Positions 1,783-34,738 of a DNA stretch of 64,000 nt are shown one piece after another (within the stretch, counting starts at the first letter, position 1; each line of letters opens with the position of its first letter). Below the pieces are notes generated by a model. It had not been told where the DNA came from. It worked only from the letters and a program-made list of their open reading frames with translations, and ran no database searches. The position numbers and the translations under genes were made by a program. This DNA comes from Blautia sp. MSJ-19 (GTDB lineage: Bacteria > Bacillota > Clostridia > Lachnospirales > Lachnospiraceae). Location: assembly GCF_018918125.1 (NCBI RefSeq), contig NZ_JAHLQA010000042.1, positions 1 through 64,000 of the forward strand. The letters are read 5' to 3'.

Positions 1783-3522
1783 TTATTCAAGAGGCTGTGT
1801 GTCCTGAAGAGCCTCAAATCCTTCTTCACCGGTACGGATCTTGACAACGTTTTCGATATCGTATACGAAGACTTTACCATCGCCGTACTGACCGGTATGA
1901 AGTGTTTTCTTAGCTGTTTCGATGACGGTTCTTACCGGAACAAGGCTGACTACGATCTCAATCTTGATCTTCGGCAGCAGGTTCATATCCATTTCAACAC
2001 CACGGTAGTAGGAACGGGAACCTTTCTGGACACCACATCCCATAACGTTTGTGATGGTGATACCGGTAACACCGATCTCATTCATGGCATGCATGAATTC
2101 TTCCAGTTTGCTCTGACGTGTGATGATAACAACCTTTGTCAGTTTGTGTACGCCTTCTCTTGGAAGTTCCGGAATGGTATCAGCAACTTCAGCAGGAGCA
2201 ACATTTGCGGAAGTGTTTGCAGAAGGAACTGCTTTTGTAACGCCCATAGGAGTTGGAACGGTCATAGTGTCATGTACAACAAATCCGTCATAAGCACTTG
2301 TAAGACCGTGTTCTTTGGAATCCAGACCTTCAATCTCTTCTTCAGCAGATACACGAAGACCAACCGTATGTTTGATTGCCTGGAAGATGATCGTCATAGT
2401 AACTGCAACCCATGCGATGGTGATGATCATGCCGATAAACTGAACACCGAATCCATGGAAACCGCCACCAACAAGAAGACCTTTCCAGTCTGTACCTGTT
2501 CCATCAGAGAAAAGACCAACTGCGAGAGTACCGAAAGCACCGTTTAATCCGTGAACGCCGACAGCACCAACCGGGTCATCGACTTTAAGAACTTTGTCAA
2601 TAAATTCAATACCAAATACTACGATAAAACCAGAAATAACACCGATGATAGCGGAAGAAGTAGGAGATACAGTATCGCATCCTGCTGTGATCGCTACCAG
2701 ACCTGCAAGAGATCCGTTGAGGGACATGGAAACATCTGGTTTTTTGTATCTGATCCATGTAATAGCGAGTGCGGTTACAGTTGCAACAGCAGCTGCAAGG
2801 TTTGTGGTTACGAAGATTTTACCCGCACTTACGATAGCATCGCCTTCCATGCTGACGGTAGATGCACCGTTGAATCCGAACCAGCAGAACCAGAGGATGA
2901 AGACACCTAAAGCACCGATGGTAAGGTTATGTCCTGGGATGGCTTTGGACTTGCCGTCCTTTCCGTATTTACCGATACGAGGTCCAAGGATGAGAGCACC
3001 GATAAATGCTGCAACACCACCGACCATATGTACGGCACAGGAACCTGCAAAATCATGGAATCCCATCTGGCTGATGAAACCGCCACCCCAGATCCAGTGT
3101 CCGGATACCGGGTAAACGATCAGGCTGATCAGGAAACTGTAGATACAGTAAGAAGAAAATTTTGTACGTTCTGCCATGGCTCCGGATACGATCGTAGCGG
3201 AAGTTGCACAGAAGACTGTCTGGAAAATCAGGAATGCCCAGAAGGGAACTCCGTCAGGAAGCATTGCAGAACCATAGTTTGCTTCTGTGGCAATGCCACC
3301 GATCTTTCCAAAGAATCCGTTTCCGGCACCGAACATGATTCCGAATCCGACGATCCAGAAGGTAGGAGTACCGATACAGAAGTCCATAAGGTTTTTCATG
3401 ATAATGTTACCAGCGTTTTTAGCTCTGGTGAAGCCGGTTTCGACCATTGCAAATCCGGCCTGCATAAAGAAGACAAGCGCGGCGCCAAGAAGCACCCATA
3501 TAGTGTTTACTGATGAATACAT
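1783..3522 (-). CDS. amt: Ammonium transporter with fused PII signalling domain
   Basis: A 579-residue Amt/Rh channel carrying its own regulator. The first ~400 residues are the Amt channel, with multiple membrane spans and the motif NGSLAGLVAITAGCD near residue 270. From about residue 460 the protein is a complete PII (GlnB/GlnK) domain: it has the T-loop sequence YYRGVEM (near 505), KIKIEIVV, and the nucleotide-binding TGQYGDGKVFV...VVKIRTGEEG. Free PII blocks Amt by inserting its T-loop in the pore; here the two are one chain. The gene lies downstream of glnN on the same strand but has its own promoter and leader terminator. Role: ammonium uptake gated by 2-oxoglutarate/ATP/ADP status. Confidence 0.95.
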   Translation of the reverse strand: MYSSVNTIWVLLGAALVFFMQAGFAMVETGFTRAKNAGNIIMKNLMDFCIGTPTFWIVGFGIMFGAGNGFFGKIGGIATEANYGSAMLPDGVPFWAFLIFQTVFCATSATIVSGAMAERTKFSSYCIYSFLISLIVYPVSGHWIWGGGFISQMGFHDFAGSCAVHMVGGVAAFIGALILGPRIGKYGKDGKSKAIPGHNLTIGALGVFILWFCWFGFNGASTVSMEGDAIVSAGKIFVTTNLAAAVATVTALAITWIRYKKPDVSMSLNGSLAGLVAITAGCDTVSPTSSAIIGVISGFIVVFGIEFIDKVLKVDDPVGAVGVHGLNGAFGTLAVGLFSDGTGTDWKGLLVGGGFHGFGVQFIGMIITIAWVAVTMTIIFQAIKHTVGLRVSAEEEIEGLDSKEHGLTSAYDGFVVHDTMTVPTPMGVTKAVPSANTSANVAPAEVADTIPELPREGVHKLTKVVIITRQSKLEEFMHAMNEIGVTGITITNVMGCGVQKGSRSYYRGVEMDMNLLPKIKIEIVVSLVPVRTVIETAKKTLHTGQYGDGKVFVYDIENVVKIRTGEEGFEALQDTQPLE

Positions 3523-3578: not shown

Positions 3579-3622
3579 AAAAACGCGGGAATGAAGTATA
3601 TCATTCTCCGCGCCTTTACGAA
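3579..3622 (-). promoter_or_regulatory. amt leader: AAAGGC hexaloop hairpin overlapping an attenuator terminator
   Basis: On the minus strand, TTCGT (3622-3618) pairs with GCGGA (3611-3607), including two G-U pairs, around loop AAAGGC (3617-3612). The following terminator, CGCGGAGAATGA (3612-3601) with TCATTCCCGCG (3594-3584) and a T-run at 3583-3579, reuses the last loop base and the 3' arm, so the two folds exclude each other. The same arrangement precedes glnN, pyrG and glnA. A likely -10 (TATATT on the minus strand) at 3626-3631 places the hairpin at the very 5' end of the transcript. Confidence 0.7.
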
Positions 3623-3634
3623 TCCAATATATAT

Positions 3635-3732
3635 GTAAAACAGGGGATGTCGTATCGTGTGATTAATGGATGAGGAAATCGATAATGAATTATGAAGTAG
3701 TTCATGTTCATAATGACATCCCCCGGTTTTAC
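3635..3732. repeat. Long Y-shaped inverted repeat between glnN and amt
   Basis: The arms GTAAAACAGGGGATGTC (3635-3651) and its near-complement (3715-3732) form a stem of about 16 pairs. An inner perfect hairpin ATTATGAA/TTCATAAT (3689-3696 with 3707-3714) sits on one side of the loop. There is no coding capacity. It could end or protect the glnN mRNA, or be a small palindromic repeat. Confidence 0.6.
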
Positions 3733-3765
3733 CAGTGTAAAATTGTCAGGTTATCCTCTTATTTC

Positions 3766-5877
3766 TCAGTCGGAGATAGAGAATAACAGTTTTCCATAAG
3801 TCGGATATGGAAGGATGGAATCTGGAATCAGAGCTTCAGCTGCGTCAGCGGATGCACGGACTTTTTCCATATCGGTAAGGACAACACTCTGATAGAGTTT
3901 TGCACTCTTGAGAAGGTCTTTGCCGACTTCGTATTCTGCCATTGCAGTATCCTGTTTCAGGGTTTCCAGATCTTTAGCCATTGTCTCAGAAAGTTCTGTC
4001 AGTTTTGTCAGAAGGGAAGCCTCTGCGGATACAGAGATATCCGGTACGACAGATTTTTTAAGCGCTGCAGTCTGAGCCAGTTTTTCCATGTATGTAGTAA
4101 CTGCCGGAAGAAGATCTTTCTGAATGATCTCAACCAGAGTACCTGCTTCGATGTGAAGTGTCTTTACATAGTTCTCAAGCTTGATCTCATAACGGGAATG
4201 AAGCTCTGCATGTGTAAAGATATGATGGCTTGTGAGAAGTTTTTCATTTTTCTCGTCTACGAAATGCGGAAGTGCATCCGGTGTGGATACCAGGTTGTAA
4301 AGACCACGTTTCTCTGCTTCTTCAAGCCATTCATCTGTATAACCGTTTCCGTTGAAGATAACACGTTTGTGATCTTTGATGGTCTGTTTCAGTAATTCAT
4401 GAACAGCGGAATCCATTTCTTCAGCCGGAACATCTTTCAGTTTTTCAGAGAACTGACGCAGAACTTCTGCAACAGCTGTGTTGAGGATGATGTTCGGGTT
4501 GGCTACAGAGGAAGAAGATCCAAGCATACGGAACTCGAATTTGTTTCCTGTGAATGCAAACGGTGAAGTACGGTTTCTGTCTGTGTTGTCTTTTACGAAG
4601 TGTGGAAGTACTTTTGCACCGATATCCATCTGAACAGCACCATGTCCTGCAAAGAACTCATCGTTTTCGATTGCTTTGAGAACCTCGGTAAGTTCATCGC
4701 CAAGGAAGATAGATACAACTGCCGGCGGAGCTTCGTTTGCACCGAGACGGTGGTCGTTTCCTGCGCTGGCAACAGAGATACGGAGCAGATCTGCATAATC
4801 ATCTACTGCTTTGATAACAGCTACAAGGAATACCAGGAACTGTGTGTTTTCAGCAGGTGTTTTGCCAGGGTCCAGAAGGTTGACACCTGTATCTGTGCTC
4901 ATGGACCAGTTGTTATGTTTACCACTTCCGTTGATGCCTTCGAATGGTTTTTCATGAAGCAGGCATACCATATTGTGTTTGGCAGCAACTTTTTTCATGA
5001 TTTCCATTGTAAGCTGGTTGTGGTCAACGGCTACGTTTGTAGTATCAAATACAGGAGCCAGCTCATGCTGTGCAGGAGCAACTTCATTGTGTTTTGTTTT
5101 AGCAGGGATTCCAAGTTTCCAGAGCTCTTCATCGAGATCATGCATGTAAGCAGATACACGAGGTTTCAGAGTTCCGAAGTAATGATCTTCCATTTCCTGT
5201 CCTTTTGGAGCAGGAGCACCGATCAGAGTACGTCCGCAGAAGATCAGGTCTTTTCTCTTATTATAGAGATCTTTGTCTACCAGGAAGTATTCCTGCTCCG
5301 GACCTACGGTTGTATTGATGTGTTTGACATCAGTATTTCCGAGAAGGCGGAGAATTTTGATTGCTTCTTTATTTAAGGTATCCATGGAACGAAGAAGAGG
5401 AGTTTTCTTATCCAGTGCTTCGCCACTGTAGGAACAGAAAGCTGTCGGGATATAAAGTGTACGGTCTTTAATGAATGCCGGTGAAGTAGGATCCCATGCT
5501 GTATATCCTCTTGCCTCGAATGTGGCACGAAGACCGCCTGAAGGGAAACTGGAAGCATCCGGTTCACCTTTAACAAGTTCTTTACCGGAGAAATCCATGA
5601 TGATCTGACCGTCAACAGTAGGAGAAATGAAACTGTCATGTTTCTCTGCTGTGAAATTGGTCATTGGCTGGAACCAGTGAGTATAATGAGTTGCGCCGTG
5701 TTCCAGTGCCCATTCTTTCATGGCAACTGCAACAGAGTTGGCAACATCAAGTTCCAGATGTGTGCCGTTTTCAATGGTTTTCTTCAGCGCTTTGTACATG
5801 TCTTTTGGTAATTTCTCACGCATGATCTTGTCGTTGAAAACAAGACTGCCGTAAATTTCAGGAATACTCTGTGCCAT
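3766..5877 (-). CDS. glnN: Glutamine synthetase type III
   Basis: A 703-residue GSIII, which makes glutamine from glutamate, ammonia and ATP in the cytosol. The length matches GSIII (about 700) rather than GSI (about 440). Landmarks include HYTHWFQPMT near residue 80, TVGPEQEYFLVD near 190, KTKHNEVAPAQHELAP near 260, NGSGKHNNWSMSTDTG near 315 (substrate and nucleotide site) and NRTSPFAFTGNKFEFRM near 430. It is transcribed away from purF and towards amt, a nitrogen-assimilation pair. Expression is probably controlled by the leader attenuator at 5927-5967. A second GS (type I) lies at 32832. Confidence 0.96.
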   Translation of the reverse strand: MAQSIPEIYGSLVFNDKIMREKLPKDMYKALKKTIENGTHLELDVANSVAVAMKEWALEHGATHYTHWFQPMTNFTAEKHDSFISPTVDGQIIMDFSGKELVKGEPDASSFPSGGLRATFEARGYTAWDPTSPAFIKDRTLYIPTAFCSYSGEALDKKTPLLRSMDTLNKEAIKILRLLGNTDVKHINTTVGPEQEYFLVDKDLYNKRKDLIFCGRTLIGAPAPKGQEMEDHYFGTLKPRVSAYMHDLDEELWKLGIPAKTKHNEVAPAQHELAPVFDTTNVAVDHNQLTMEIMKKVAAKHNMVCLLHEKPFEGINGSGKHNNWSMSTDTGVNLLDPGKTPAENTQFLVFLVAVIKAVDDYADLLRISVASAGNDHRLGANEAPPAVVSIFLGDELTEVLKAIENDEFFAGHGAVQMDIGAKVLPHFVKDNTDRNRTSPFAFTGNKFEFRMLGSSSSVANPNIILNTAVAEVLRQFSEKLKDVPAEEMDSAVHELLKQTIKDHKRVIFNGNGYTDEWLEEAEKRGLYNLVSTPDALPHFVDEKNEKLLTSHHIFTHAELHSRYEIKLENYVKTLHIEAGTLVEIIQKDLLPAVTTYMEKLAQTAALKKSVVPDISVSAEASLLTKLTELSETMAKDLETLKQDTAMAEYEVGKDLLKSAKLYQSVVLTDMEKVRASADAAEALIPDSILPYPTYGKLLFSISD

Positions 5878-5926: not shown

Positions 5927-5967
5927 AAAAAAGGCGCCTTGGAATCTAATCCAAAGCGCCGTTGCTT
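5927..5967 (-). promoter_or_regulatory. glnN leader: AACGGC hexaloop hairpin overlapping an attenuator terminator
   Basis: On the minus strand AAGC (5967-5964) pairs with GCTT (5957-5954) around loop AACGGC (5963-5958). An 11-bp terminator stem (5960-5950 with 5943-5933) followed by TTTTTT reuses three loop bases and the whole 3' arm, so forming the small hairpin prevents termination. The predicted transcription start is only a few bases upstream. Same logic as the leaders of amt, pyrG and glnA. Confidence 0.75.
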
Positions 5968-5976
5968 ATGTGATGT

Positions 5977-6004
5977 AGTATACACAAAAAAATCAGGATG
6001 TCAA
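5977..6004 (-). promoter_or_regulatory. glnN promoter
   Basis: On the minus strand a perfect -35 TTGACA (6004-5999) lies 16 bp from -10 TATACT (5982-5977). Transcription should start near 5970, immediately before the leader hairpin. Confidence 0.8.
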
Positions 6005-7587: not shown

Positions 7588-7616
7588 TATTTACAAACGA
7601 AAAAAAATAAGGTATA
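7588..7616 (+). promoter_or_regulatory. pyrG promoter
   Basis: TTTACA about 17 bp upstream of TATAGT, in the A/T-rich stretch after purF. Start is predicted near 7622, giving a leader of about 115 bases. Bases of the two hexamers are placed to within a few positions. Confidence 0.6.
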
Positions 7617-7641
7617 GTAATTTTCATATTTTAAGATCTTA

Positions 7642-7704
7642 TCTGACAAAGGCGTCAGAAGTGAGAGAGGGAATGGTCCCCTTGTCCGCTTCTGACGCTT
7701 TTTT
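7642..7704 (+). promoter_or_regulatory. pyrG leader: AAAGGC hexaloop hairpin overlapping an attenuator terminator
   Basis: TCTGAC (7642-7647) pairs with GTCAGA (7654-7659) around loop AAAGGC (7648-7653). The terminator stem GCGTCAGAAG (7652-7661) with CTTCTGACGC (7689-7698), followed by TTTTTT (7699-7704), reuses the loop end and the 3' arm. The two structures are mutually exclusive. In Bacillus subtilis pyrG also has a leader terminator, but there it is controlled by CTP-sensitive G addition at the transcript start; no such G-run start is evident here. Confidence 0.75.
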
Positions 7705-7737: not shown

Positions 7738-9375
7738 ATGGCAGTAAAATACGTTTTTGTTACAGGTGGTGTAGTATCTGGACTTGGTAAGGGAATTACG
7801 GCAGCGTCTCTTGGAAGACTTCTCAAAGCGAGAGGATATCAGGTAACGATGCAGAAATTTGATCCTTATATTAACATTGACCCGGGTACGATGAATCCGA
7901 TCCAGCATGGAGAAGTTTTTGTTACAGATGATGGCACAGAGACTGATCTGGATCTGGGACATTATGAAAGATTTATTGATGAAAGCCTGGATAAGAATTC
8001 AAATGTGACAACCGGTAAGGTTTACTGGTCTGTATTACAGAAGGAACGTCATGGAGACTTTGGAGGAGGAACCGTGCAGGTTATTCCTCATATTACCAAT
8101 GAGATCAAGAGCCGTTTCTATCGTGCCAAAGCACATGACGAAGAAAAAATCGCAATCATTGAAGTCGGTGGAACTGTTGGCGATATTGAAAGCCAGCCAT
8201 TCCTCGAATCTATTCGTCAGTTCCAGCATGATGTTGGACATGACAATGCGATCCTGATCCATGTTACACTGATTCCTTATCTGAAAGCATCAGAAGAAAT
8301 GAAGACCAAGCCTACACAGGCGAGTGTCAAAGAACTTCAGGGCATGGGAATTCAGCCGGATGTTCTGGTATGCAGAAGTGAACATCCGCTGACCGATGAG
8401 ATCAAAGCCAAAATTGCACTGTTCTGTAATGTACCGGTCAGCCATGTACTGCAGAACCTGGATGTAGAGTATTTATATGAAGCACCTCTTGCAATGGAAA
8501 GAGAGAAACTTGCAGATGTAGTACTGGAATCTTTGAGGCTGGAAAATCGTAAACCGGATCTGACAGAATGGACACAGATGGTTAATGATCTTCGTAATCC
8601 GGAAAGCACAGTCAACATTGCTATGGTAGGAAAGTATACACAGCTTCATGATGCATATTTAAGTGTTGTAGAGGCATTGAAACATGGTGGTATCTCCTGC
8701 AGAGCCAAAGTAGAGATTACCTGGATCGATTCAGAAGAACTGAATGAAAAGAATCTGGATCAGGCTCTTCACAAAGTAGATGGTATTCTGGTTCCGGGTG
8801 GTTTTGGAAACCGTGGAACAGAAGGCATGATTCTGGCTGCACAGTATGCACGTGTACACAAGATTCCATATCTTGGCATCTGCCTCGGTATGCAGATGGC
8901 AATCGTAGAATTCGCAAGACATGTACTTGGATATGAAGATGCAAACAGCATTGAGCTGGATCCGTCTACCAAGCATCCGGTGATCGCTCTGATGCCGGAT
9001 CAGGAAAGCGTGGAGGATCTGGGAGGAACTCTGAGACTTGGAAGTTATCCATGTGTGCTTGCAGACAATTCCAAAGCACTGGAACTGTTTGGAAAGAAAG
9101 AAATTCAGGAGCGTCACAGACATCGTTATGAAGTTAATAATGCATATCGTGAGGAGCTTGCTGCGAAGGGAATGACGATTGCGGGAACTTCACCGGATGG
9201 ACATATCGTAGAAATGATAGAAGTCAAAGACCATCCATTTTATGAAGGAACACAGGGACATCCGGAATTTAAGTCCAGACCGAACCATGCGCATCCACTG
9301 TTCCGTGGATTTGTAAAAGCAGCAGATGAGTATGCAAAGCTGAAACAGAGCCGACAGGCACAAAATAAAGAATAA
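7738..9375 (+). CDS. pyrG: CTP synthase (glutamine-hydrolysing)
   Basis: A 545-residue enzyme converting UTP, ATP and glutamine to CTP. The N-terminal synthase domain starts [17 protein letters not shown] (P-loop) and carries [16 protein letters not shown]. The C-terminal class I glutaminase has GICLGMQ (nucleophile Cys), HRHRYEVNN and the GHPEFKSRP histidine-glutamate pair. Length is typical. GGAGGAGG precedes ATG at 7738. A leader attenuator (7642-7704) links it to the glutamine synthetase genes. Confidence 0.97.
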
Positions 9376-9418: not shown

Positions 9419-12400
9419 ATGACCATGCAGGAAGTAAGGAGAGAAGATCAGGGACTGTACCGCCGCGAATTCGAGCATGATAACTGTGGTATCGGTGCGG
9501 TTGTAAATATCAAAGGTAAAAAGACCCATGATACAGTGGCAAATGCGCTTAGAATCGTAGAACATCTGGAGCATCGTGCCGGCAAAGACGCAGAAGGAAA
9601 GACCGGTGACGGTGTAGGTATCCTTCTGCAGATTTCACATAAATTTTTCAAAAAAGCCTGTAAGAAGGAGGGCTTTGAGATTGGCGGAGAGAGAGAATAT
9701 GGTATCGCACAGTTCTTTTTCCCGCAGCATGAGATCAAGCGTGCCCAGGCAAAAAAGATGTTCGAGATCATCGTGGAAAAAGAAGGGCTGGAACTTCTTG
9801 GCTGGAGAACTGTTCCGGTAATTCCGGAAGTTCTCGGACACAAAGCAAGAGAATGTATGCCTTACATCATGCAGGCATTTATCAAGAAACCGGAAGAAGT
9901 GGAAAAAGGTCTTCCATTCGACCGTATGCTTTATATTGCACGTCGTGAATTTGAGCAGAGTAATGACAATACGTATGTCGTATCCATGAGCAGCCGTACG
10001 ATCGTGTACAAAGGTATGTTCCTGGTAGGACAGCTCCGTACATTCTTTGCAGATCTTCAGAGTCCGGATTATGAATCAGCGATCGCGATGGTTCATTCCA
10101 GATTCAGTACAAACACAAACCCAAGCTGGGAGAGAGCACATCCGAACCGTTTCATGGTACACAATGGTGAAATCAATACCATTCGTGGAAATGCAGATAA
10201 GATGCTTGCAAGAGAAGAAAACATGGAGTCTCCTTATCTAAAAGGACAGCTTCATAAAGTCCTTCCGGTTGTTAACCGCAATGGTTCTGACTCCGCAATG
10301 CTGGACAATACTCTGGAATTCCTTGTTATGAGTGGCATGGAACTTCCACTGGCAGTTATGATCACAATTCCGGAACCATGGGCATATAATGATACCATTT
10401 CTCAGGAGAAGAGAGATTTCTATCAGTATTATGCAACCATGATGGAACCATGGGATGGACCGGCATCCATTCTGTTCTCTGATGGTGATGTAATGGGCGC
10501 TGTTCTTGACCGTAACGGTCTGCGTCCGTCCAGATATTATATTACTTCCGATGGTTATATGATCCTTTCTTCAGAAGTCGGTGTTATGCCGGTACCGGAA
10601 GACAAGATCGTTCTCAAAGAGCGTCTGCATCCTGGCAAAATGCTGCTGGTTGATACGGTACAGGGAAAAGTCATTGATGATGACGAACTGAAAGAAAAAT
10701 ATGCCAAAATGCAGCCATATGGTGAGTGGCTGAACAGCAACCTGGTACAGCTCAAAGACATCAAGATTCCGAATATCCGTATGGAAGAGTACACAGACGA
10801 GCAGCGCGCACGTCTGCAGAAAGCATTTGGTTATACTTACGAACAGTACCGTACTTCTATCCGAAACATGGCATTGAATGGCGCAGAAAGTATCGGTGCA
10901 ATGGGTGTGGATACACCACTGGCAGTCCTGTCTGATCAGGATCGTCCTCTGTTTGATTATTTTAAACAGCTTTTTGCACAGGTTACAAACCCGCCAATCG
11001 ATGCGATCCGTGAGGAAATCGTAACATCTACCAGCGTCTATGTCGGAAAAGACGGAAACCTTCTGGTGCAGCAGCCGGAAAACTGTCATGTATTGAAAAT
11101 CGTACATCCGATTCTGACCAATACGGACATGCTGAAAATTAAAAATATGAATCACGAGGGCTTCAAAGTAGCTGTCGTTTCTACCTTATATTATAAGAGC
11201 ACCAAGCTGGAGAGAGCAATCGATCGTCTGTTTGTCGAGGTAGACAAAGCATATCGTGACGGTGCAAATATCCTGGTACTTTCTGACCGTGGTGTAGATG
11301 AGAACCATATGCCGATCCCGTCATTACTGGCAGTATCCGCAGTTCATCAGCACCTCGTAAAAACAAAGAAGAGTACATCCCTTGCAATCATTCTGGAATC
11401 CGGAGAACCAAGAGAAGTTCATCATTTTGCAACACTCCTTGGCTATGGCGCAAGTGCGATCAACCCGTATCTGGCACTGGAAACCATTCGTGAGCTGATT
11501 GACAACCATATGCTGGACAAGGATTATTATGCGGCAGTAGAAGACTACAATCATGCAGTTTTAAGTGGTATTGTCAAGATTGCATCCAAGATGGGTATTT
11601 CTACGATCCAGTCCTATCAGGGCTCCCAGATTTTTGAGGCAATCGGTATCTCACAGGATGTGATCGACAAATACTTTACCGGTACAGTCAGTCGTGTCGG
11701 TGGAATCACTCTGGAAGATATTGAGGATAATGTAGAAAAACTTCATTCAGAGGCATTTGATCCACTTGGACTGGATACGGACCTCACACTGGACAGCGTT
11801 GGCGCGCATAAGATGAGAAGTCAGGGTGAGGAACACAGATACAATCCACAGACAATTCACCTGCTTCAGCAGTCTACATGGACCGGAAGCTATGATCTGT
11901 TCAAACAGTATACAGCTCTGGTAGACAAAGAAAGCCATGGAGCACTCCGTGGACTTCTGGAATTCAACTATCCGGAAAAGGCAATTCCGATTGATGAAGT
12001 AGAGAGTGTAGATGAGATCGTAAAACGATTCAAAACAGGTGCAATGTCCTATGGATCTATTTCTCAGGAAGCCCATGAGACACTGGCAATCGCAATGAAT
12101 CATCTGCACGGCAAATCCAACACCGGTGAGGGTGGTGAGAGTGCAGAACGTATCGCATCTGCAGGAAGCGAAAATGACCGTTGTTCTGCAATCAAACAGG
12201 TTGCCAGTGGACGATTTGGCGTTACCAGCCGTTATCTGGTATCTGCAAGAGAGATTCAGATCAAGATGGCACAGGGTGCAAAACCTGGTGAGGGTGGACA
12301 TCTTCCGGCTAAGAAAGTATATCCGTGGATTGCAAAGACACGTCATTCTACACCTGGCGTATCTCTGATTTCTCCGCCGCCGCACCATGATATCTATTCC

Positions 12401-13978
12401 ATCGAGGACCTGGCACAGCTGATCTACGACCTGAAAAACTCAAACGTTTATGCAGACATTTCTGTAAAACTTGTATCCGAAGCTGGTGTCGGTACAGTCG
12501 CAGCCGGTGTTGCGAAAGCCGGTGCACAGACAGTTCTGATCTCCGGATACGATGGAGGAACAGGAGCTGCTCCGAGAAGTTCTATCCACAATGCAGGTCT
12601 TCCATGGGAACTTGGCCTGGCAGAGACACATCAGACCCTGCTGATGAACGGACTGCGTAACCGTGTACGTATCGAGACAGATGGTAAGCTGATGAGTGGA
12701 CGTGATGTTGCAATCGCAGCACTGCTTGGTGCAGAAGAATTCGGTTTTGCCACAGCTCCACTTGTAACTATGGGCTGTGTGATGATGCGTGTATGTAATC
12801 TGGATACCTGTCCGGTTGGTGTGGCAACACAGAATCCGGAACTTCGTAAACGTTTCCGTGGTAAACCGGAATATGTAGAGAACTTTATGAGATTCATTGC
12901 ACAGGAATTGAGAGAGTATATGGCACGTCTTGGTGTTCACACGGTTGATGAGATGGTAGGACGTACAGATCTTTTAAGACAGTCTCCGGAAGCAGTGGCA
13001 GCAGAACCTCATAAAGGCAAACTGGATCTCAGCGCAATCCTTAATAACCCATATGCCGGAAACGGACAGAAAGTGACTTTTGATCCAAAAGCTGTCTATA
13101 ACTTCGAACTGGAAAAGACACTGGATGAAAAAGTTCTTCTCAAGAAATGTGCAAAGGCAATTGCAAGAAAAGAGCATGTAGAACTGAGCGTGGATGTTAC
13201 CAATACAGACCGTACATTTGGTACGATCCTTGGTGCAGAGATCACCAGACAGACCGGAACAGGCCTGCCGGATGATACGATCGTGGTTAACTGTAATGGA
13301 GCCGGTGGACAGAGCTTCGGTGCTTTCATTCCGAAGGGACTGACACTGAATCTTACCGGTGACAGCAACGACTACTTTGGAAAAGGACTTTCCGGTGGTA
13401 AACTGATCGTGAAAGTTCCGGAAAAAGCAGCTTACAAACCAGAAGATAACATCATTATCGGAAACGTTGCCCTGTATGGTGCAACCAGTGGCTATGCATT
13501 TATCAATGGTGTTGCAGGCGAGCGTTTTGCAGTTCGTAACTCCGGTGCTTACGCAGTCGTAGAAGGTGTCGGAGAACACGGATGTGAATATATGACCGGT
13601 GGACGTGTCGTAGTACTTGGACGTACCGGAAAGAACTTTGCAGCCGGTATGAGTGGTGGTATTGCCTATGTACTGGATGTGGAAAACAAGCTGTACAAAA
13701 ATATCAACAAAGCAATGATCTCTATTGAAAAAGTAGAGAACAAATATGACAAGAAAGAACTTCGTGATCTGATCGAAGCCCATGTTGCGGCTACAGGTTC
13801 CGAATTAGGAGCCAAAGTGCTTGCTGACTTTGACTATTATCTGCCGCACTTTAAGAAACTCATTCCAAATGAGTACAAGAAGATGATCACACTCAGTGCC
13901 AAATTAGAAGAAAAAGGACTGACCAGTGAGCAGGCGCAGATGGAAGCATTTTACGAAAGCATTGGAGCAAAGCATTAA
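9419..13978 (+). CDS. gltB: Glutamate synthase large subunit
   Basis: A 1519-residue alpha subunit of NADPH-type GOGAT: glutamine plus 2-oxoglutarate gives two glutamates. The N-terminal glutaminase nucleophile is in EHDNCGIGAV (Cys near residue 22, exposed after propeptide removal). The central FMN/synthase domain includes LISPPPHHDIYSIEDLAQLI and SGYDGGTGAAPRSSIHNAG. The 3Fe-4S ligands are in CVMMRVCNLDTCPVG. The C-terminal beta-helix domain has repeated G-X-X-G-X-X-X-G units such as GNVALYGATSGYAFINGVAG. AAAGGA lies before ATG 9419; a second ATG is six bases in. gltD follows 15 bases later. Confidence 0.97.
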   Translation: MTMQEVRREDQGLYRREFEHDNCGIGAVVNIKGKKTHDTVANALRIVEHLEHRAGKDAEGKTGDGVGILLQISHKFFKKACKKEGFEIGGEREYGIAQFFFPQHEIKRAQAKKMFEIIVEKEGLELLGWRTVPVIPEVLGHKARECMPYIMQAFIKKPEEVEKGLPFDRMLYIARREFEQSNDNTYVVSMSSRTIVYKGMFLVGQLRTFFADLQSPDYESAIAMVHSRFSTNTNPSWERAHPNRFMVHNGEINTIRGNADKMLAREENMESPYLKGQLHKVLPVVNRNGSDSAMLDNTLEFLVMSGMELPLAVMITIPEPWAYNDTISQEKRDFYQYYATMMEPWDGPASILFSDGDVMGAVLDRNGLRPSRYYITSDGYMILSSEVGVMPVPEDKIVLKERLHPGKMLLVDTVQGKVIDDDELKEKYAKMQPYGEWLNSNLVQLKDIKIPNIRMEEYTDEQRARLQKAFGYTYEQYRTSIRNMALNGAESIGAMGVDTPLAVLSDQDRPLFDYFKQLFAQVTNPPIDAIREEIVTSTSVYVGKDGNLLVQQPENCHVLKIVHPILTNTDMLKIKNMNHEGFKVAVVSTLYYKSTKLERAIDRLFVEVDKAYRDGANILVLSDRGVDENHMPIPSLLAVSAVHQHLVKTKKSTSLAIILESGEPREVHHFATLLGYGASAINPYLALETIRELIDNHMLDKDYYAAVEDYNHAVLSGIVKIASKMGISTIQSYQGSQIFEAIGISQDVIDKYFTGTVSRVGGITLEDIEDNVEKLHSEAFDPLGLDTDLTLDSVGAHKMRSQGEEHRYNPQTIHLLQQSTWTGSYDLFKQYTALVDKESHGALRGLLEFNYPEKAIPIDEVESVDEIVKRFKTGAMSYGSISQEAHETLAIAMNHLHGKSNTGEGGESAERIASAGSENDRCSAIKQVASGRFGVTSRYLVSAREIQIKMAQGAKPGEGGHLPAKKVYPWIAKTRHSTPGVSLISPPPHHDIYSIEDLAQLIYDLKNSNVYADISVKLVSEAGVGTVAAGVAKAGAQTVLISGYDGGTGAAPRSSIHNAGLPWELGLAETHQTLLMNGLRNRVRIETDGKLMSGRDVAIAALLGAEEFGFATAPLVTMGCVMMRVCNLDTCPVGVATQNPELRKRFRGKPEYVENFMRFIAQELREYMARLGVHTVDEMVGRTDLLRQSPEAVAAEPHKGKLDLSAILNNPYAGNGQKVTFDPKAVYNFELEKTLDEKVLLKKCAKAIARKEHVELSVDVTNTDRTFGTILGAEITRQTGTGLPDDTIVVNCNGAGGQSFGAFIPKGLTLNLTGDSNDYFGKGLSGGKLIVKVPEKAAYKPEDNIIIGNVALYGATSGYAFINGVAGERFAVRNSGAYAVVEGVGEHGCEYMTGGRVVVLGRTGKNFAAGMSGGIAYVLDVENKLYKNINKAMISIEKVENKYDKKELRDLIEAHVAATGSELGAKVLADFDYYLPHFKKLIPNEYKKMITLSAKLEEKGLTSEQAQMEAFYESIGAKH

Positions 13979-13993
13979 GGAGGATGAGGAAAC

Positions 13994-15478
13994 ATGGGAA
14001 AGCCAACAGGATTTTTAGAATATAAAAGAGAGACAGCCAAAGTACTGCCTCCAAAGGTCCGGATTGCCAACTTCAATGAATTCCGGACTCCGATCAGTAA
14101 AGAAAAACAGAAAAAACAGGGAGCACGCTGCATGGCATGTGGCGTTCCTTTCTGTCAGTCAGGTATGATGCTGAATGGAATGGCTTCCGGCTGTCCGCTG
14201 CACAACCTGGTACCGGAGACAAATGATCTGGTTTATACAGGAAACTGGAAACAGGCATATTTGAGACTTTCCAAGACACACAGTTTTCCGGAATTTACTT
14301 CCAGAGTATGCCCGGCACTCTGTGAAGCAGCATGTACCTGCAATCTGGACAGTGAGCCGGTATCAACCAAAGAAAACGAAAGAGCGATCATTGAAACTGC
14401 ATGGCAGGAGGGCTGGGTAAAACCACAGATTCCGCGTGTACGTACCGGAAAGACGATCGCAGTCATTGGAAGCGGACCATCCGGACTGGCAGCCGCACAG
14501 CAGCTGAACCGAAGAGGTCACAGTGTGACGGTTTATGAAAGAAGTGACAGACCAGGCGGACTTCTTCGTTATGGTATTCCGAATATGAAACTGGAGAAAT
14601 CTGTTGTAGACAGACGAATTCATCTCATGGAAGAAGAGGGAGTGCAGTTTGTTCTGAACACAAATGTCGGAAAAGACATCACTGCAGACGAACTTCTCAA
14701 AAAATATGATCGTGTAGTCCTTGCATGTGGCGCATCCAATCCGCGAGATATCAAAGTTCCGGGAAGAGAAGCAAAAGGTATCTATTTTGCAGTCGATTTC
14801 CTTGGAAAAGTAACAAAGACTCTTCTGGATTCTGACTTTGAAAAGGTACCGTATGAGCTTGCAAAAGATAAACACGTGCTTGTTATCGGTGGCGGTGATA
14901 CCGGTAATGACTGTGTGGGAACCAGCGTTCGTCTGGGAGCAAAATCCGTGACTCAGCTTGAGATGATGCCAAAACCTCCGGTAGAGCGTGCGGCAAACAA
15001 TCCGTGGCCACAATGGCCGAGAGTTCTCAAGACTGATTATGGTCAGGAAGAGGCAATCGCTGTATTTGGTCATGACCCACGTGTATATCAGACAACCGTT
15101 ACAGAATTTATCGCAGATAAAAAAGGCAATGTGTGCAAGGCCAAGATCGTCAAACTTAAAAGCCAGAAAGACGAAAAGACCGGAAGAATGATGATGGTTC
15201 CGGTAGAGGGAACCGAAGAAGTTATTCCGGCAGATGTGGTACTGATCGCAGCAGGATTCCTCGGAAGCCAGAAATATGTGACAGATGCGTTCAAGGTGTC
15301 CATCAATGGACGTACCAATGTAGAGACAAAACCGGAAGCATATGAAACTTCTGTTCCGAGAGTCTTTACAGCAGGAGACATGCATCGTGGACAGTCACTG
15401 GTCGTATGGGCGATCCGCGAAGGCCGCGAAGCTGCAAGAGCAGTGGATGAGTCCCTGATGGGTTATACAAATCTTTAA
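13994..15478 (+). CDS. gltD: Glutamate synthase small subunit
   Basis: A 494-residue beta subunit that feeds NADPH electrons to GltB. N-terminal cysteines CMACGVPFC and the downstream CPALCEAACTC form the low-potential 4Fe-4S sites. FAD binds at IGSGPSGLAAAQQL (near residue 157), NADPH at VIGGGDTGNDCVGTS (near 300), and the second FAD motif is RVFTAGDMHRGQSLVVWAI. AGGAGG precedes the ATG, 15 bases after gltB, so the two form one operon. A terminator follows directly. Confidence 0.96.
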   Translation: MGKPTGFLEYKRETAKVLPPKVRIANFNEFRTPISKEKQKKQGARCMACGVPFCQSGMMLNGMASGCPLHNLVPETNDLVYTGNWKQAYLRLSKTHSFPEFTSRVCPALCEAACTCNLDSEPVSTKENERAIIETAWQEGWVKPQIPRVRTGKTIAVIGSGPSGLAAAQQLNRRGHSVTVYERSDRPGGLLRYGIPNMKLEKSVVDRRIHLMEEEGVQFVLNTNVGKDITADELLKKYDRVVLACGASNPRDIKVPGREAKGIYFAVDFLGKVTKTLLDSDFEKVPYELAKDKHVLVIGGGDTGNDCVGTSVRLGAKSVTQLEMMPKPPVERAANNPWPQWPRVLKTDYGQEEAIAVFGHDPRVYQTTVTEFIADKKGNVCKAKIVKLKSQKDEKTGRMMMVPVEGTEEVIPADVVLIAAGFLGSQKYVTDAFKVSINGRTNVETKPEAYETSVPRVFTAGDMHRGQSLVVWAIREGREAARAVDESLMGYTNL

Positions 15479-30246: not shown

Positions 30247-32651
30247 GAAAAAAAGAAACGCACGGAAAACAGAATAAGGCAGAAGTACTTCTTCTTGATT
30301 CAGGATACCAGCCGGATCCGGCACGCCGGCAGTCAGAAATCCGAGACAAAGGTCTGTCATGGCTGGTGCTGACGGTGTCTGTACTGATCCTGACAGGGAG
30401 TGTACTTGCTGCATTTTCAGTACAGGATGACGGACTCTGGATGCTGTTTCCGGGCATTTTGGTGTTCTGTCTGTTCTGGTGCTGGTTTTATATGGATAAA
30501 AGACTGGATTCCAGAAGAATCTATCTGATACTGGCAGTTCTGATCGTTTATACAGTGGTCTGTTTTGTATTGCAGAGTCAGATTACCGGTGGATTTTATC
30601 AGACAGCAGATTTTGTGATGAACCGGATCAATCAGAGATACGGTGGGAATATGCAGTTATTTCAGGTGAGTGGAAGTTATGAGATACCAGTATTTTTTCT
30701 GACCGTTTTGTTTCCGGTTACAGGGGTGTTGGGAGCAGGAAGCGTTCAAAAGAAAAACTGGCTTCTTGTTCTGTCAGTTCTGTTTCCGGTGGCAGCACTG
30801 ATGCTGCTTTCCGGTGGCAGACCGGGTAATCTGTGGATGTATCTTCTGACACTGTGTGTTCTGTTGTTGTTTACGGCGGGACGCAGTCAACTTCCGGGAT
30901 GGAAGGCAGCGATGACAGCGATACTGCTTGCAGTGATCGTATCAATTCCGGCATATGGAATCGCCGTACCGCTGGCAAAAAAAGAAATTCCGACGATAAC
31001 GAGGACAACGACCAGGATTCAGAATCGTATGCTGCAGTCTCTGGGAAGAATTCTTCCGGCAATATCCAGTGGAAATCTAAAGCTTTCGGTGGAAGGTGTT
31101 GCCGGTGGAGTGGAAAACGGGGAACTTGGTGCGACAGACGGTGTGTTCTTTACCGGAATGGATGCACTCAGAGTGACCAGTCAGCAGATGCCGCAGGAGA
31201 CGGTGTATCTTAAAGGCTATATTGGAGAGACTTATACAGGCAGCAGCTTTGAGCCGGGGGTGGAAGAGAATTTCCGTAATGCGGCAGCGACCTGGAAGAC
31301 AGAGGATGATTCTTCTCGTTATGTGCAGAATCTTCCGTTTCTGCGGATGATGTATTATGAGAATCAGTCCACGGATGAGCAGAACACCGAAAGCCTTTGC
31401 AGTACAGCCAATCAGATCACAGTGGAGAATATAAATGCCAACACAAACTATACTTATGTGCCGTATGAAGCATTTTTGAATGACGGATATATCGTGGATG
31501 CCGGGGATGGCTCCGTAGAAGGACAGAGTCGGCAGGATGACATCTTTTCCTGTTACTGGCGAAGCAGTTACAAAGAGGCAATGGAGAGTTTCCGGGATGG
31601 GAAAGATACTTCCGGAACGCTCAATGAAACAGAGCGGGCCTACCGTGATTACTGCAGTGTTTATGATATGCAGATACCGGAAAAAGGACTCGAAAAGCTC
31701 AAAAAGGAATGTGCAGAGGCAGCAGAGCAGAATGGCTGGAATGAGTCGGAGATGAATGCGGAGATGCCGGATTGGGCAGTTGCAGACAGATATGAGGAGA
31801 TCCGGCAGTATGTGGTAAAGAGACTTCTCAGTACGTGCAGTTATGAGACAGATGTGGAAAAACTGAAAGACGGACAGGACTTCGTAGAGAATTTTCTTTA
31901 TGAAACAAAAGAAGGCTACAGTATGCATTTTGCAGCCGCTGCGACGATGATGTTTCGGATTTTTGGAGTACCGGCACGGTATGTGACCGGCTATGTGGCA
32001 CCGCAGGAGCTTTTTACAGAGGATGCAGACGGCATGTATTCAGCCGTACTGGAAGATGACAATGCACATACCTGGGTGGAAATCTATCAGCCGTTTCTCG
32101 GATGGACACCAGTGGAAGTGACACCGGGTATGGAAACAGAGTTTGTGGACCAGACGGAAGCGAAGGACCAGAATGCGGAAGTACCGGATGAACAGGCGAA
32201 CGGGGCTGAGAAAGTAAAAGAAAGGGAAGAAGGACTGGTTGTGCAGATTGCGGGCTGGTTTACCGGGAACATTGCACTCTTTCTTAAAATTGCGGGTATC
32301 TTGTGCGGATGCCTTGTACTGGCAGGAACCTTTGTAAAGATATGCGCAGTGCGAAGAGAACGCTATGGCATCGGAGAAGATCCGGCAGGACAGATACGTG
32401 CTGTCTATCGTGATCTGTGTCGAAATCTGTACAGAAAAGGAATGCCCGAGGACTGCATAGTGGCAGATGGAAGTGTCGTCGAACAGATCTGTAAGATATG
32501 CCCGGAAGTGACTGCACAGGACGGAGAGCTGCTTTGTTGTCTGGTCCTGAATGCGAACTATGGGAACGATCCTGTGACAGAAGAGGAAAGCCGCTGGATG
32601 CGCAGAATCTGTAAGCAGATAAAGAAAGCCGCAAGGCGAAAAAAAAGTTGA
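30243..32651 (+). CDS. Transglutaminase-like membrane protein (TgpA type), altered active site
   Basis: An 802-residue protein with about seven N-terminal membrane spans, an extracellular region and a transglutaminase/protease-like domain near residues 530-630, then another span and a cytosolic tail. At the expected nucleophile the sequence reads EGYSMHFAAAATMMF, with Ser560 where family members usually carry Cys (codon AGT at 31920-31922). The His is present (AHTWVEIY, His609) and the acid is Glu625 in WTPVEVTPG. The chain is otherwise full length. It completes the MoxR-DUF58-TGc trio next to the pilus operon. It may be a non-catalytic scaffold or a serine variant. Confidence 0.88.
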   Translation: MRKKETHGKQNKAEVLLLDSGYQPDPARRQSEIRDKGLSWLVLTVSVLILTGSVLAAFSVQDDGLWMLFPGILVFCLFWCWFYMDKRLDSRRIYLILAVLIVYTVVCFVLQSQITGGFYQTADFVMNRINQRYGGNMQLFQVSGSYEIPVFFLTVLFPVTGVLGAGSVQKKNWLLVLSVLFPVAALMLLSGGRPGNLWMYLLTLCVLLLFTAGRSQLPGWKAAMTAILLAVIVSIPAYGIAVPLAKKEIPTITRTTTRIQNRMLQSLGRILPAISSGNLKLSVEGVAGGVENGELGATDGVFFTGMDALRVTSQQMPQETVYLKGYIGETYTGSSFEPGVEENFRNAAATWKTEDDSSRYVQNLPFLRMMYYENQSTDEQNTESLCSTANQITVENINANTNYTYVPYEAFLNDGYIVDAGDGSVEGQSRQDDIFSCYWRSSYKEAMESFRDGKDTSGTLNETERAYRDYCSVYDMQIPEKGLEKLKKECAEAAEQNGWNESEMNAEMPDWAVADRYEEIRQYVVKRLLSTCSYETDVEKLKDGQDFVENFLYETKEGYSMHFAAAATMMFRIFGVPARYVTGYVAPQELFTEDADGMYSAVLEDDNAHTWVEIYQPFLGWTPVEVTPGMETEFVDQTEAKDQNAEVPDEQANGAEKVKEREEGLVVQIAGWFTGNIALFLKIAGILCGCLVLAGTFVKICAVRRERYGIGEDPAGQIRAVYRDLCRNLYRKGMPEDCIVADGSVVEQICKICPEVTAQDGELLCCLVLNANYGNDPVTEEESRWMRRICKQIKKAARRKKS

Positions 32652-32676
32652 CAAAGACCATATGGATTGCTATAAT
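32648..32676 (+). promoter_or_regulatory. glnA promoter
   Basis: -35 TTGACA (32648-32653), 17-bp spacer, -10 TATAAT (32671-32676): a consensus promoter overlapping the end of the preceding gene. Confidence 0.9.
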
Positions 32677-32684: not shown

Positions 32685-32736
32685 GAACAAGGGCGTTCTT
32701 TTGGAGGGTAACCCTCCGAAAGTGCGCCCCTTTTTT
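32685..32736 (+). promoter_or_regulatory. glnA leader: AAGGGC hexaloop hairpin overlapping an attenuator terminator
   Basis: GAAC (32685-32688) pairs with GTTC (32695-32698) around loop AAGGGC (32689-32694). The terminator starts inside that loop: GGGCG (32691-32695) with CGCCC (32725-32729), and CTTTTGGAGGG (32698-32708) with CCCTCCGAAAG (32712-32722), then six T. The hairpin starts about eight bases after the -10 box. Confidence 0.75.
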
Positions 32737-32831: not shown

Positions 32832-34139
32832 ATGGGGAATTATACCAGAGAGGAAATTTTGCAGATGGTGGAGGACGAAGACGTAGAGTTTATCCGCCTT
32901 CAGTTTACCGATATGTTCGGGGCAATCAAAAATATCGCTGTAACCGCTCGGGAACTTCCCCGGGCACTGAATAATCAGTGTGTGATCGATGGAGAGCAGA
33001 TTGCAGGTACTTCTGGATTAAAGGATGCCGACCTGTATCTCAGACCGGTACTGGATACTTTTGCAATCCTGCCGTGGCGTCCACAGCAGGGAAAAGTGGC
33101 ACGAATGATCTGTGACCTGTATTTCCCGGACGGAACACCTTATAAAAACAGTCCGAGATATATCCTGGAAAATGTTGCAGGCAAAGCACAGGAGGAAGGG
33201 TATACCTGTTATATCGATCCGGAATGTGAGTTCTTCCTGTTCCACACAGATGACAATGGAAATCCGACAACAGTGACACATGAGCAGGCCGGTTATTTGG
33301 ATATCAGTCCGCTGGATCTTGGAGAAAATGCCCGCAGAGATATGGTGCTGACACTGGAAGATATGGGAATGGAAGTAGAATCTTCTCATCATGAGGCAGC
33401 ACCGGCACAGCATGAGATTGACTTCCGCTATGGTGAGATCCGTAAGATCGCAGACTGTATCACTACATTCAAGATGGCAGTCCGTATTGTTGCCAAGAGA
33501 CACGGTCTTCATGCGACATTTATGCCGAAACCGAAGGCAGAAGTAAATGGTTCTGGAATGCACATTCAGTTTTCATTGATCAAAGATGGAAAGAATGTAT
33601 TTGAAAGCCAGGAGAATCCGGGAGAACTCAGTCAGGATGCATATTATTTCATTGGTGGATTGCTTGCACACAGCAAGGAAATGGCACTGATCACCAATCC
33701 GATCGTTAATTCATACAAACGTCTTGTTCCGGGTTATGATGCGCCAACGGAACTGACCTGGACAGAAAACAATCAGAATTCACTTGTTCGTATTCCGGTA
33801 ACCAGAGGGGAAGGAATCAGAGTGGAACTTCGAAGCCCTGATACATCAGCTAACCCATATGTTGTCCTGGCAGTCTGCCTGGCAGCAGGGCTGGATGGAA
33901 TCAAAAATAAGATTACGCCGACAAAATCATCAAACTGTGCAACACAGGATCAGCGGACAGAACACCTTCCGTCAACACTGAAAGAGGCAATTGATTATTT
34001 TGAATCCAGTAACTGGGTAAAAGAAGTACTTGGAGAGGAATTCTGCAGTCAGTATGTAGCGGCCAAGAAAAATGAATGGCTGAGATATACCAGACAGGTA
34101 ACTGACTGGGAAATCGCGGAATATCTGTACCGTCTGTAA
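32832..34139 (+). CDS. glnA: Glutamine synthetase type I
   Basis: A 435-residue GSI. Landmarks are YIDPECEFFLF near residue 135 (metal and glutamate site), SSHHEAAPAQHEIDF near 190, ATFMPKPKAEVNGSGMHIQF near 230 and NSLVRIPVTRG near 315. The length lacks the extra insertion of the GSI-beta subtype, and no adenylylation-tyrosine loop is obvious, so this is the alpha subtype. AAGGAG precedes the ATG. It is the second GS in the window, followed 50 bases later by the ANTAR gene. Confidence 0.96.
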   Translation: MGNYTREEILQMVEDEDVEFIRLQFTDMFGAIKNIAVTARELPRALNNQCVIDGEQIAGTSGLKDADLYLRPVLDTFAILPWRPQQGKVARMICDLYFPDGTPYKNSPRYILENVAGKAQEEGYTCYIDPECEFFLFHTDDNGNPTTVTHEQAGYLDISPLDLGENARRDMVLTLEDMGMEVESSHHEAAPAQHEIDFRYGEIRKIADCITTFKMAVRIVAKRHGLHATFMPKPKAEVNGSGMHIQFSLIKDGKNVFESQENPGELSQDAYYFIGGLLAHSKEMALITNPIVNSYKRLVPGYDAPTELTWTENNQNSLVRIPVTRGEGIRVELRSPDTSANPYVVLAVCLAAGLDGIKNKITPTKSSNCATQDQRTEHLPSTLKEAIDYFESSNWVKEVLGEEFCSQYVAAKKNEWLRYTRQVTDWEIAEYLYRL

Positions 34140-34189: not shown

Positions 34190-34738
34190 ATGAGCAGCAT
34201 TGTCATTGCATTACCGAAAATAGAAGATGCCAGAAAAATCCGCAGCGTTCTGGAACGCCACGGATTTGTGGTAGCCTCTGTATGCAGTACAGCATCGAAT
34301 GCTCTTTCTAACGCTTCAGAACTTGGAAGTGGTGTATTGATCTGCGGTCCCCGTTTGCCGGATATGAATTATATGGATCTGGCGGAGTGCATGCCGCGTG
34401 AGTTCGAGATGCTGCTTCTGGCATCTGCAAGAGTGATCAGTGAGGTCCCGCCGTCAATCTTGTCGGTAGAGATGCCGATGAGGGCCAGTGATCTGGTCAA
34501 TACGGTAAATATGATCCTCATGCAGCAGGAACGAAAACGGCGGAAGGAAAAAAAGAAACCAAAACTTCGTTCCGAAAAAGAACAGAATTATATTTCCAAT
34601 GCAAAGATGATGCTGATGCAGCGAAATCATCTGAGTGAAGAGGATGCTTACCGGTACATCCAGAAATCAAGTATGGATTCCGGGACCAATATGGTTGAGA
34701 CAGCACAGATGCTGCTGATGCTGTTGTATGAGAATTAA
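34190..34738 (+). CDS. ANTAR-domain RNA-binding antiterminator with degenerate receiver
   Basis: A 182-residue protein. Residues 1-120 are a receiver-like fold (SIVIALPKIEDARKIRSVLE) that lacks the acidic pocket. Gly53 in VLICGPRLPDMN stands where the phosphoacceptor Asp should be, so phosphorylation by a kinase is unlikely. A basic linker (RKRRKEKKKPK) leads to the C-terminal ANTAR three-helix domain (YISNAKMMLMQRNHLSEEDA, then YRYIQKSSM, ending TAQMLLMLLYEN). ANTAR proteins bind hexaloop RNA hairpins with A at position 1 and G at position 4 and prevent termination. Such loops occur in four leaders of this window. Position after glnA indicates nitrogen control. Confidence 0.92.
   Translation: MSSIVIALPKIEDARKIRSVLERHGFVVASVCSTASNALSNASELGSGVLICGPRLPDMNYMDLAECMPREFEMLLLASARVISEVPPSILSVEMPMRASDLVNTVNMILMQQERKRRKEKKKPKLRSEKEQNYISNAKMMLMQRNHLSEEDAYRYIQKSSMDSGTNMVETAQMLLMLLYEN

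Follow-up and report, generated by a model that had tools for sequence, protein, structure and literature searches.

A single-hexaloop hairpin over the terminators of four nitrogen leaders in Blautia, candidate target of a glnA-linked ANTAR regulator

The closest described counterparts of the RNA element reported here are the eut leaders of Enterococcus faecalis, controlled by EutV/EutW, which carry a dual hexaloop with A at loop position 1 and G at position 4 (A1/G4): a recruitment hairpin (P1), needed by EutV in vivo, and an antiterminator hairpin (P2) that overlaps the terminator, with a regulator whose receiver domain is phosphorylated (excerpts of PMC3369931). Each contact of EutV is made with a single hexaloop, and the protein is proposed to move from P1 to P2; the authors of its crystal structure regard one hexaloop as the minimal site, with both loops contacted in turn to prevent termination, and they add that single-hexaloop sites might exist absent the time limit set by the polymerase and request work on single-hexaloop use (excerpts of PMC8934654). 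We describe a hairpin in the leaders of glnN, amt-PII, glnA and pyrG within 64,000 nucleotides (nt) of Blautia sp. MSJ-19 (contig NZ_JAHLQA010000042.1, positions 1 to 64,000), the whole of which is called the window. Like the eut leaders, these leaders combine an A1/G4 hexaloop, a 3′ arm common to an intrinsic terminator and an ANTAR protein; unlike them, they have one hexaloop, which most glnA and glnN leaders carry at +1, and a regulator with a pseudo-receiver. The hairpin, its terminator overlap, the covariation of its stem, its loop code, its gene context, its co-occurrence with ANTAR proteins, the lack of an enriched P1 and the promoter spacing were all computed, and they give us good confidence in a model in which the glnA-linked, NitR-like ANTAR protein would bind the single hairpin and block the terminator, making the leader an ON-type attenuator.

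NitR of Clostridium saccharobutylicum is reported to be an ANTAR antiterminator that induces the glutamine synthetase (GS) and glutamate synthase (GOGAT) genes under nitrogen limitation (Stutz et al. 2007, as described in the review PMC6316151), and a nitR antiterminator is also mentioned in an excerpt of PMC4676874. NitR and the regulator of the window very likely belong to the same functional class; the single hexaloop at +1 and the wider gene set come from the present analysis. ANTAR-target RNAs have been found by covariance search before P-II, ammonium transporter, nitrogenase and glutamate/glutamine synthase genes, the same kinds of gene as here, with the terminator overlapping P2 (PMC3369931, as excerpted). 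The actinobacterial ANTAR RNAs share the A1/G4 hexaloops; they were curated for dual stem-loops and few of them lie before terminators, unlike the Blautia leaders (excerpt of PMC8164766). ANTAR control of glnA/glt and ANTAR targets before nitrogen genes are thus known already. Our literature search, with supplements and most subscription papers outside its scope, found no publication on single-hexaloop terminator leaders, and as far as that search shows, what is new is a target with one hexaloop, its location at +1, its distribution, the genes it precedes and its statistical association with ANTAR genes.

Hairpin, terminator and promoter in the leaders

An earlier note on this DNA, made from the sequence alone, had described AANGGC hexaloops on short stems of differing sequence in the four leaders, with the last loop bases and the 3′ arm lying in the 5′ arm of an intrinsic terminator. 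All four hairpins are present in the window sequence (Table 1), and the overlap is seen in the minimum-free-energy (MFE) folds of all four leaders. The terminator folds reach -30.8 (glnA), -33.1 (pyrG), -21.1 (glnN) and -21.1 (amt) kcal/mol, and the hairpins alone -1.6, -6.8, -2.0 and -2.1 kcal/mol, so that the terminator is favoured by about 19-29 kcal/mol. AANGGC hexaloops on stems of at least four pairs occur six times in the window, and four of these are the four leaders. With an overlapping terminator required there are four, vs none in 20 simulated windows; loosening the loop to ANNGNN still gives four in the window, vs 0.15 per simulated window.

The same note had put the hairpin within about ten bases of the transcript start in three leaders. 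This stands for glnA and glnN, where the distance to the -10 hexamer places the start of the stem (8 and 9 nt past the box) at about +1 to +3, and is uncertain for amt, whose best promoter match, the weak ACGACA/TATATT, ends 3 nt before the stem and would set the start inside the 5′ arm. Promoter spacing was also scored in 186 leaders, 170 of which have a strong best -35/-10 pair. In 107 of these the pair lies 3-14 nt ahead of the stem (8-11 nt in 83 of the 107), vs 19 of 96 control anchors. The 3-14 nt spacing is found in glnA (47/49), glnN (24/26), gltB (9/12), purF (5/6), amt (5/11) and pyrG (6/42), the median distance for pyrG being 27 nt. All 30 aligned glnA/glnN leaders have TTGACA, and their -10 boxes are TATAAT-like. 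If transcription starts about 7 nt past the -10 box, the hairpin would be the first thing transcribed in most glnA and glnN leaders, and since it sits so near the predicted start, a recruitment hairpin could not be transcribed in these.

That only one hexaloop is conserved, as the earlier note had remarked, is borne out beyond the window, where a P1-like upstream hexaloop occurs at chance level. Dual targets have P1 2-25 nt upstream; with gaps of up to 20 nt allowed, and scripts of differing strictness, it was found in 8 of the 186 leaders (6.6 ± 2.5 in shuffled sequence) and, outside the family, in 1 leader of 36 (1.6 shuffled). There is overlap between the leader sets, L149 and L025 being one contig; in the 179 leaders that remain after removal of identical 65-mers there are again 8, vs 6.2 shuffled. 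In 27 pyrG leaders the spacer lacks structure (mean -0.24 vs -0.44 shuffled). Positive controls for the dual finder are the pairs that it picks up in 2 of 18 eutA loci (L342, L343) and a textbook dual pair with terminator in L424. The comparison across the class used 20 longer ANTAR loci, as the shorter loci L380-L409 did not reach the glnA leaders, and 16 of the 20 have a glnA match. A single hexaloop precedes glnA in five of the 16 (G271, G244, G322, G344, G248) and a dual-type pair in one (L410); in the remaining ten the scripts report neither before glnA. Shuffled versions of the shorter loci yield 0.4 dual calls per 30.

Tandem units of single hexaloop and terminator, 55-109 nt apart, were seen in 6 of 148 loci (L191, L213, L227, L236, L314, L317), and the amt leaders L129, L134 and L137 look tandem by eye, though the script rejects them.

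Conservation and spread of the element

To gauge conservation we took the 80 best of 308 named loci that hold a relative of the ANTAR gene; glnA lies just upstream of it in 79 of them. The ANTAR protein of one named relative, Blautia sp. Marseille-P3087, is 90% identical to that of the window. By a script rule that asks for an A1..G4 hexaloop over a terminator, the element is found in 38 of 75 usable glnA, 33 of 40 pyrG, 6 of 8 glnN and 12 of 28 amt leaders. Several of the leaders that fail the rule visibly carry the hairpin (L003-L005 and L013, with the terminator predicted further 5′), and some lack it. A hexaloop hairpin of any sequence overlaps the terminator in 103 of 151 leaders and has A1..G4 in 89 of these, a pattern shared by 50 of 679 control hexaloops at other places in these leaders. 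An alignment of 45 diverse leaders shows no variation at A1, A2, G4 or the G that follows the loop, and the loop is closed by a C-G pair in 41 leaders and by U-G in 4; A1 and G4 were selection criteria for this alignment, A2 and the closing pair were not. Of the fixed AANGGC loop claimed before, AANG is constant across relatives and positions 5-6 follow the terminator arm. Stem cells are paired in 93.8% of cases vs 66.7% in shuffled alignments, and 73 cells are changed on both sides vs 29 shuffled. Four of the five stem pairs have changed on both sides, and sliding or shuffling the alignment strongly lowers both pairing and covariation. The earlier reading of a real, ANTAR-like regulatory RNA is supported by these data, as stem pairing and terminator overlap also hold beyond the window.

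The spread of the element was followed with a covariance model (R1) of the hairpin plus terminator tail, whose training set included the glnN, amt-PII and pyrG leaders of the window and left out its glnA leader. In the window R1 returns glnA at E = 2e-4 (0.011 genome-wide), glnN at 3e-5, amt at 5e-4 and pyrG at 1e-5. Only window leaders are matched with confidence in the organism's own genome, other matches having E >= 6.8; one weak match (L146) lacks the full hairpin, by eye, among four viewed. The genome-wide scan missed the amt leader that the window scan detects, and genome-wide counts are therefore lower bounds. Among 150 Lachnospiraceae genomes, one per genus, R1 matches occur in 115 genera at E<=1, and among 291 genomes of the class, own family included, in 72 at E<=0.05.

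Gene context was read at the 89 best family places outside the window (E up to 0.0072), which hold 100 local matches at E<=0.01, or 97 once three duplicates from overlapping stretches are dropped. The nearest matching gene within 900 nt downstream is glnN (21), glnA (14), gltB (12), pyrG (10), amt (8), purF-labelled (6), gltD-labelled (1) or another gene (25), with weak labels for three PurF (28-32% identity) and one GltD (25%), and two Amt labels at 33-35% identity. The enrichment before nitrogen or glutamine genes on which the earlier note had staked its reading is thus present, 72 of the 97 hits lying near a relative of a window gene, and it extends further, in that 8 of the remaining 25 precede asnB, gdhA or carA. 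An open reading frame (ORF) was readable after 22 of those 25 hits: asnB (6), aminotransferase, SAICAR synthetase and PPDK_N (2 each), and one each of Glu/Leu/Phe/Val dehydrogenase (gdhA-like), CarA, NifH, amino-acid permease, Na:Ala symporter, solute-binding protein family 3, EutA, ATP-grasp, TGT and oligopeptide ABC ATPase, of which the TGT and ABC ATPase hits may be due to chance. The gltB, asnB, gdhA, carA and nifH leaders were matched though absent from the training set. Outside the family, the 27 best loci have the element ahead of glnA, glnN, amt, gltB and other genes.

The ANTAR regulator and its co-occurrence with the element

The glnA-linked ANTAR gene encodes the sole ANTAR match in the genome; that genome also holds a full-length eutA (G000:C13:86569-88008). 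The protein has the NitR/AmiR-type architecture of receiver-like domain, coiled coil and ANTAR domain, and its AlphaFold model (pLDDT 91.3) has Rv1626 and EutV as top matches in the PDB. All 109 matched places, representing 97 distinct sequences, have G, S or A at the position of the phosphorylated Asp. As the phospho-acceptor is absent, input from a kinase is unlikely, and the natural reading, by analogy, would be AmiR-like control through a partner protein. Among the EutV contacts named in an excerpt of PMC8934654, mapped here by our own alignment, K149, E160 and M172 are invariant at these 109 places and Y164 is Y, H or F. Loss of R175/R177 was considered as a mark of single-hexaloop regulators and dropped, since G175 is frequent outside the family, both with and without model hits.

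Pfam detects an ANTAR domain in 131 of the 150 family genomes. At E<=0.05, with counts taken by eye from the match table and then tested statistically, R1 matches occur in 86 of these 131 vs 1 of the 19 without ANTAR (p=4e-7); at E<=1 the figures are 112 of 131 and 3 of 19 (p=2e-9). In the class outside the family, 61 of 135 genomes with ANTAR have a match at E<=0.05 vs 4 of 146 without (p=8e-19). A gene-matched check used the best type III GS (GSIII) gene of 30 of the 131 ANTAR genomes, taken in handle order and at least 90% complete: the A1..G4 hairpin is present in 16 of 30 glnN leaders vs 1 of 19 from 18 ANTAR-less genomes (p=6e-4), or 18 of 30 vs 3 of 19 if a G1 variant is counted. The script misses some leaders that R1 detects (G002 is scored as 'none', with a model match before glnN). 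Among the 19 ANTAR-less genomes, the seven with a clear pyrG match have no motif over the terminator in their pyrG leaders (0/7).

Other arrangements of the ANTAR domain were seen as well. In G019 a 585-residue ORF (L376, 2128-3882, minus strand) joins CTP_synth_N, GATase and ANTAR domains (Pfam) in a fusion of CTP synthase (PyrG) with ANTAR, and one target gene is thereby linked to the regulator. This is the only ANTAR match in G019, whose glnN leader keeps the hexaloop hairpin (L272), and the same junction recurs in a second genome (L378, G063), where the C-terminal 100 residues lie at a contig end. A second ANTAR clade, weakly similar to the protein of the window, is represented by 18 family loci (L357-L374). 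Its receiver-like domains mostly read INAPLPD or similar, with Asn for the expected Asp (L369 differs), and 17 of the 18 genomes also have R1 matches at E<=1, with none listed for G097. L377 (G121) holds a 74-residue ORF with little beyond the ANTAR domain and no receiver domain.

In the window the ANTAR gene starts 50 nt after glnA, and a purF-like gene is also found, beside amt-PII, glnN, pyrG-gltB-gltD, glnA and the ANTAR gene. The gaps between pyrG, gltB and gltD are only 43 and 15 nt, and for this reason the pyrG leader probably drives the three genes as a single operon. Between glnN and amt-PII, at 3638-3733, lies a long inverted repeat recognised by eye (AAAACAGGGGATGTC ... GACATCCCCCGGTTTT), and a similar sequence precedes amt in several Blautia genomes. 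Rfam places a c-di-GMP-I riboswitch at 51637-51717 and a T-box leader at 63486-63778.

Table 1. Candidate antiterminator hairpins (loop in brackets) and associated features of the window.
Feature	Position	Strand	Sequence or parts	Basis or remark
glnN antiterminator hairpin (candidate)	5967-5954	-	AAGC[AACGGC]GCTT	9 nt past -10 box
amt-PII antiterminator hairpin (candidate)	3622-3607	-	TTCGT[AAAGGC]GCGGA	two G-U pairs
glnA antiterminator hairpin (candidate)	32685-32698	+	GAAC[AAGGGC]GTTC	8 nt past -10 box
pyrG-gltB-gltD antiterminator hairpin (candidate)	7642-7659	+	TCTGAC[AAAGGC]GTCAGA	23 nt past -10 box
glnA promoter	32648-32676	+	TTGACA 32648-32653, 17-nt spacer, TATAAT 32671-32676	read directly and scored
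glnN promoter	6004-5977	-	TTGACA 6004-5999, TATACT 5982-5977	read directly and scored; conserved in relatives
pyrG promoter	7590-7618	+	TTTACA 7590-7595, TATAGT 7613-7618	read directly and scored
glnA intrinsic terminator and U tract	32691-32735	+	hairpin 32691-32729	fold
glnN intrinsic terminator hairpin	5933-5960	-	followed by U tract	fold
amt-PII intrinsic terminator hairpin	3579-3617	-	followed by U tract	fold
pyrG intrinsic terminator hairpin	7648-7702	+	followed by U tract	fold
glnA, type I glutamine synthetase (GSI)	32832-34139	+		Pfam Gln-synt_C, 391 bits
glnN, type III glutamine synthetase (GSIII)	3766-5877	-		Pfam GSIII_N, 272.8 bits
amt-PII, ammonium transporter	1783-3522	-	C-terminal P-II domain	Pfam Ammonium_transp, P-II
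pyrG	7738-9375	+		ORF, Pfam
gltB	9419-13978	+		ORF, Pfam
gltD-like	13994-15478	+		ORF, Pfam
ANTAR regulator	34190-34738	+	receiver-like domain, coiled coil, ANTAR domain	Pfam ANTAR, 54.9 bits

Model, alternatives and meaning

These sequence data suggest a model in which one regulatory protein very probably uses the hairpin to control whether RNA polymerase goes on into four operons for ammonia uptake and glutamine or glutamate synthesis; binding, the direction of control and the signal are what we infer. By default the strong terminator would fold and transcription would end after about 50-80 nt, and a binding factor would be needed because the hairpins are by far the weaker folds. We propose that the ANTAR regulator grips the one hexaloop hairpin, reading A1, G4 and the closing pair of the loop, and that in glnA and glnN the bound hairpin would consist of the first nucleotides of the transcript. 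The captured hairpin would withhold bases that the terminator needs, giving read-through into glnA-ANTAR, glnN, amt-PII and pyrG-gltBD, with no part played by a P1 hexaloop. The signal would probably be a shortage of nitrogen or glutamine, delivered by a protein partner, since the receiver domain lacks a phosphorylated Asp. At the +1 leaders, where the transcript allows no earlier recruitment, the protein would need to be plentiful, to act fast or to be close to the polymerase beforehand. Co-transcription of the ANTAR gene with glnA, if it occurs, would entail positive autoregulation.

Several observations weigh against this model. Both the covariance model and the leader sets were selected for stems (at least four pairs) and for A1/G4, which inflates the covariation, and the co-occurrence statistics ignore kinship among genomes. 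Matches occur without a detected ANTAR protein in four class genomes and in one (E<=0.05) to three (E<=1) family genomes, and the ANTAR-less genome G114 (98% complete) has a GACGGC variant before glnN (L253). Conversely, 45 of the 131 ANTAR-bearing family genomes have no match at E<=0.05, and the strict motif is missing from 14 of the 30 glnN leaders of ANTAR genomes. The amt promoter match of the window is incompatible with a start ahead of the hairpin. Among the 20 class loci, dual-type pairs are reported at L410 (glnA), L416 (glnN) and L422, which may be chance. Finally, EutV residues R142, K143, K147, R168, R175 and R177 are mostly replaced (by Q/E, N, N, Q, G and N) at the 109 places, so that RNA reading would differ in detail from that of EutV.

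One alternative is that the leaders are ordinary dual-hexaloop ANTAR targets, whose P1 was overlooked further upstream and is transcribed from another promoter. The targets of AmiR, NasR and EutV are all dual (PMC3369936), deletion of P1 lowers induction at the eutP leader (PMC3369931, as excerpted), and outside the family such pairs occur once each before glnA (L410) and glnN (L416). We nevertheless consider this explanation very unlikely: P1-like hexaloops are no commoner than chance, the conserved -35/-10 boxes of glnA and glnN leave only some 8-11 nt ahead of the hairpin, and the pyrG spacer is unstructured. It is highly improbable, in our judgement, that the terminator is controlled without any protein, whether by a small molecule (glutamine or a nucleotide) or by NTP-dependent reiterative initiation as at the pyrG genes of other Firmicutes. 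Reiterative transcription of pyrG is known from Bacillus. It is also on record for Streptococcus agalactiae (excerpt of PMC4448216). Tiny riboswitches embedded in terminators exist (excerpt of PMC8632094). Control of this kind sits badly with one loop shared by genes whose end products are unrelated, with a hairpin of only 14-18 nt, with the lack of any Rfam match above gathering score at the four leaders and with the strong co-occurrence with ANTAR.

The position of the repeat raises another possibility, that a repressor uses it as a DNA operator at +1, the RNA fold being incidental. Just 3′ of the -10 box is where a short inverted repeat would classically serve as an operator, and the spacing in many glnA and glnN leaders fits it. 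An operator would show conserved half-sites around a variable centre; here the stems vary, the half-sites differing among genes of one genome, and the loop at the centre is constant, which is the reverse. G-U pairs (amt), the overlap of each repeat with a terminator and an occurrence that tracks an RNA-binding domain also speak against it, and we give this reading scarcely any credence. Fainter still is the chance that the hairpin mainly shields the 5′ end of the mRNA, with the terminator overlap secondary. Most glnA and glnN leaders do have it at their very 5′ terminus, but protection would leave the fixed loop, the terminator overlap and the gene set unexplained, and the pyrG hairpins sit further in.

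Returning to capture of the single hairpin by the ANTAR protein, a more far-reaching idea, which we regard as possible but rather doubtful, is that Clostridia use an initiation-coupled form of ANTAR antitermination, with the regulator loading on a single hexaloop formed by the earliest transcribed bases at a promoter-locked spacing and no recruitment hairpin, in which a bound metabolic enzyme provides the signal and PyrG-ANTAR acts as sensor and antiterminator of the nitrogen regulon in one protein in at least one genus.

The element would work like an ANTAR antiterminator yet has one hexaloop where two define the described targets, and the published requirement for two hairpins does not seem to hold here. 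The leaders form a large natural set of single-hexaloop terminator leaders that bears on the question raised by the authors of the EutV structure, and with minimal leaders of about 55 nt the need for two hairpins in ANTAR antitermination becomes testable. They also outline a nitrogen regulon of gut Clostridia for which dual-hairpin search models are not designed.
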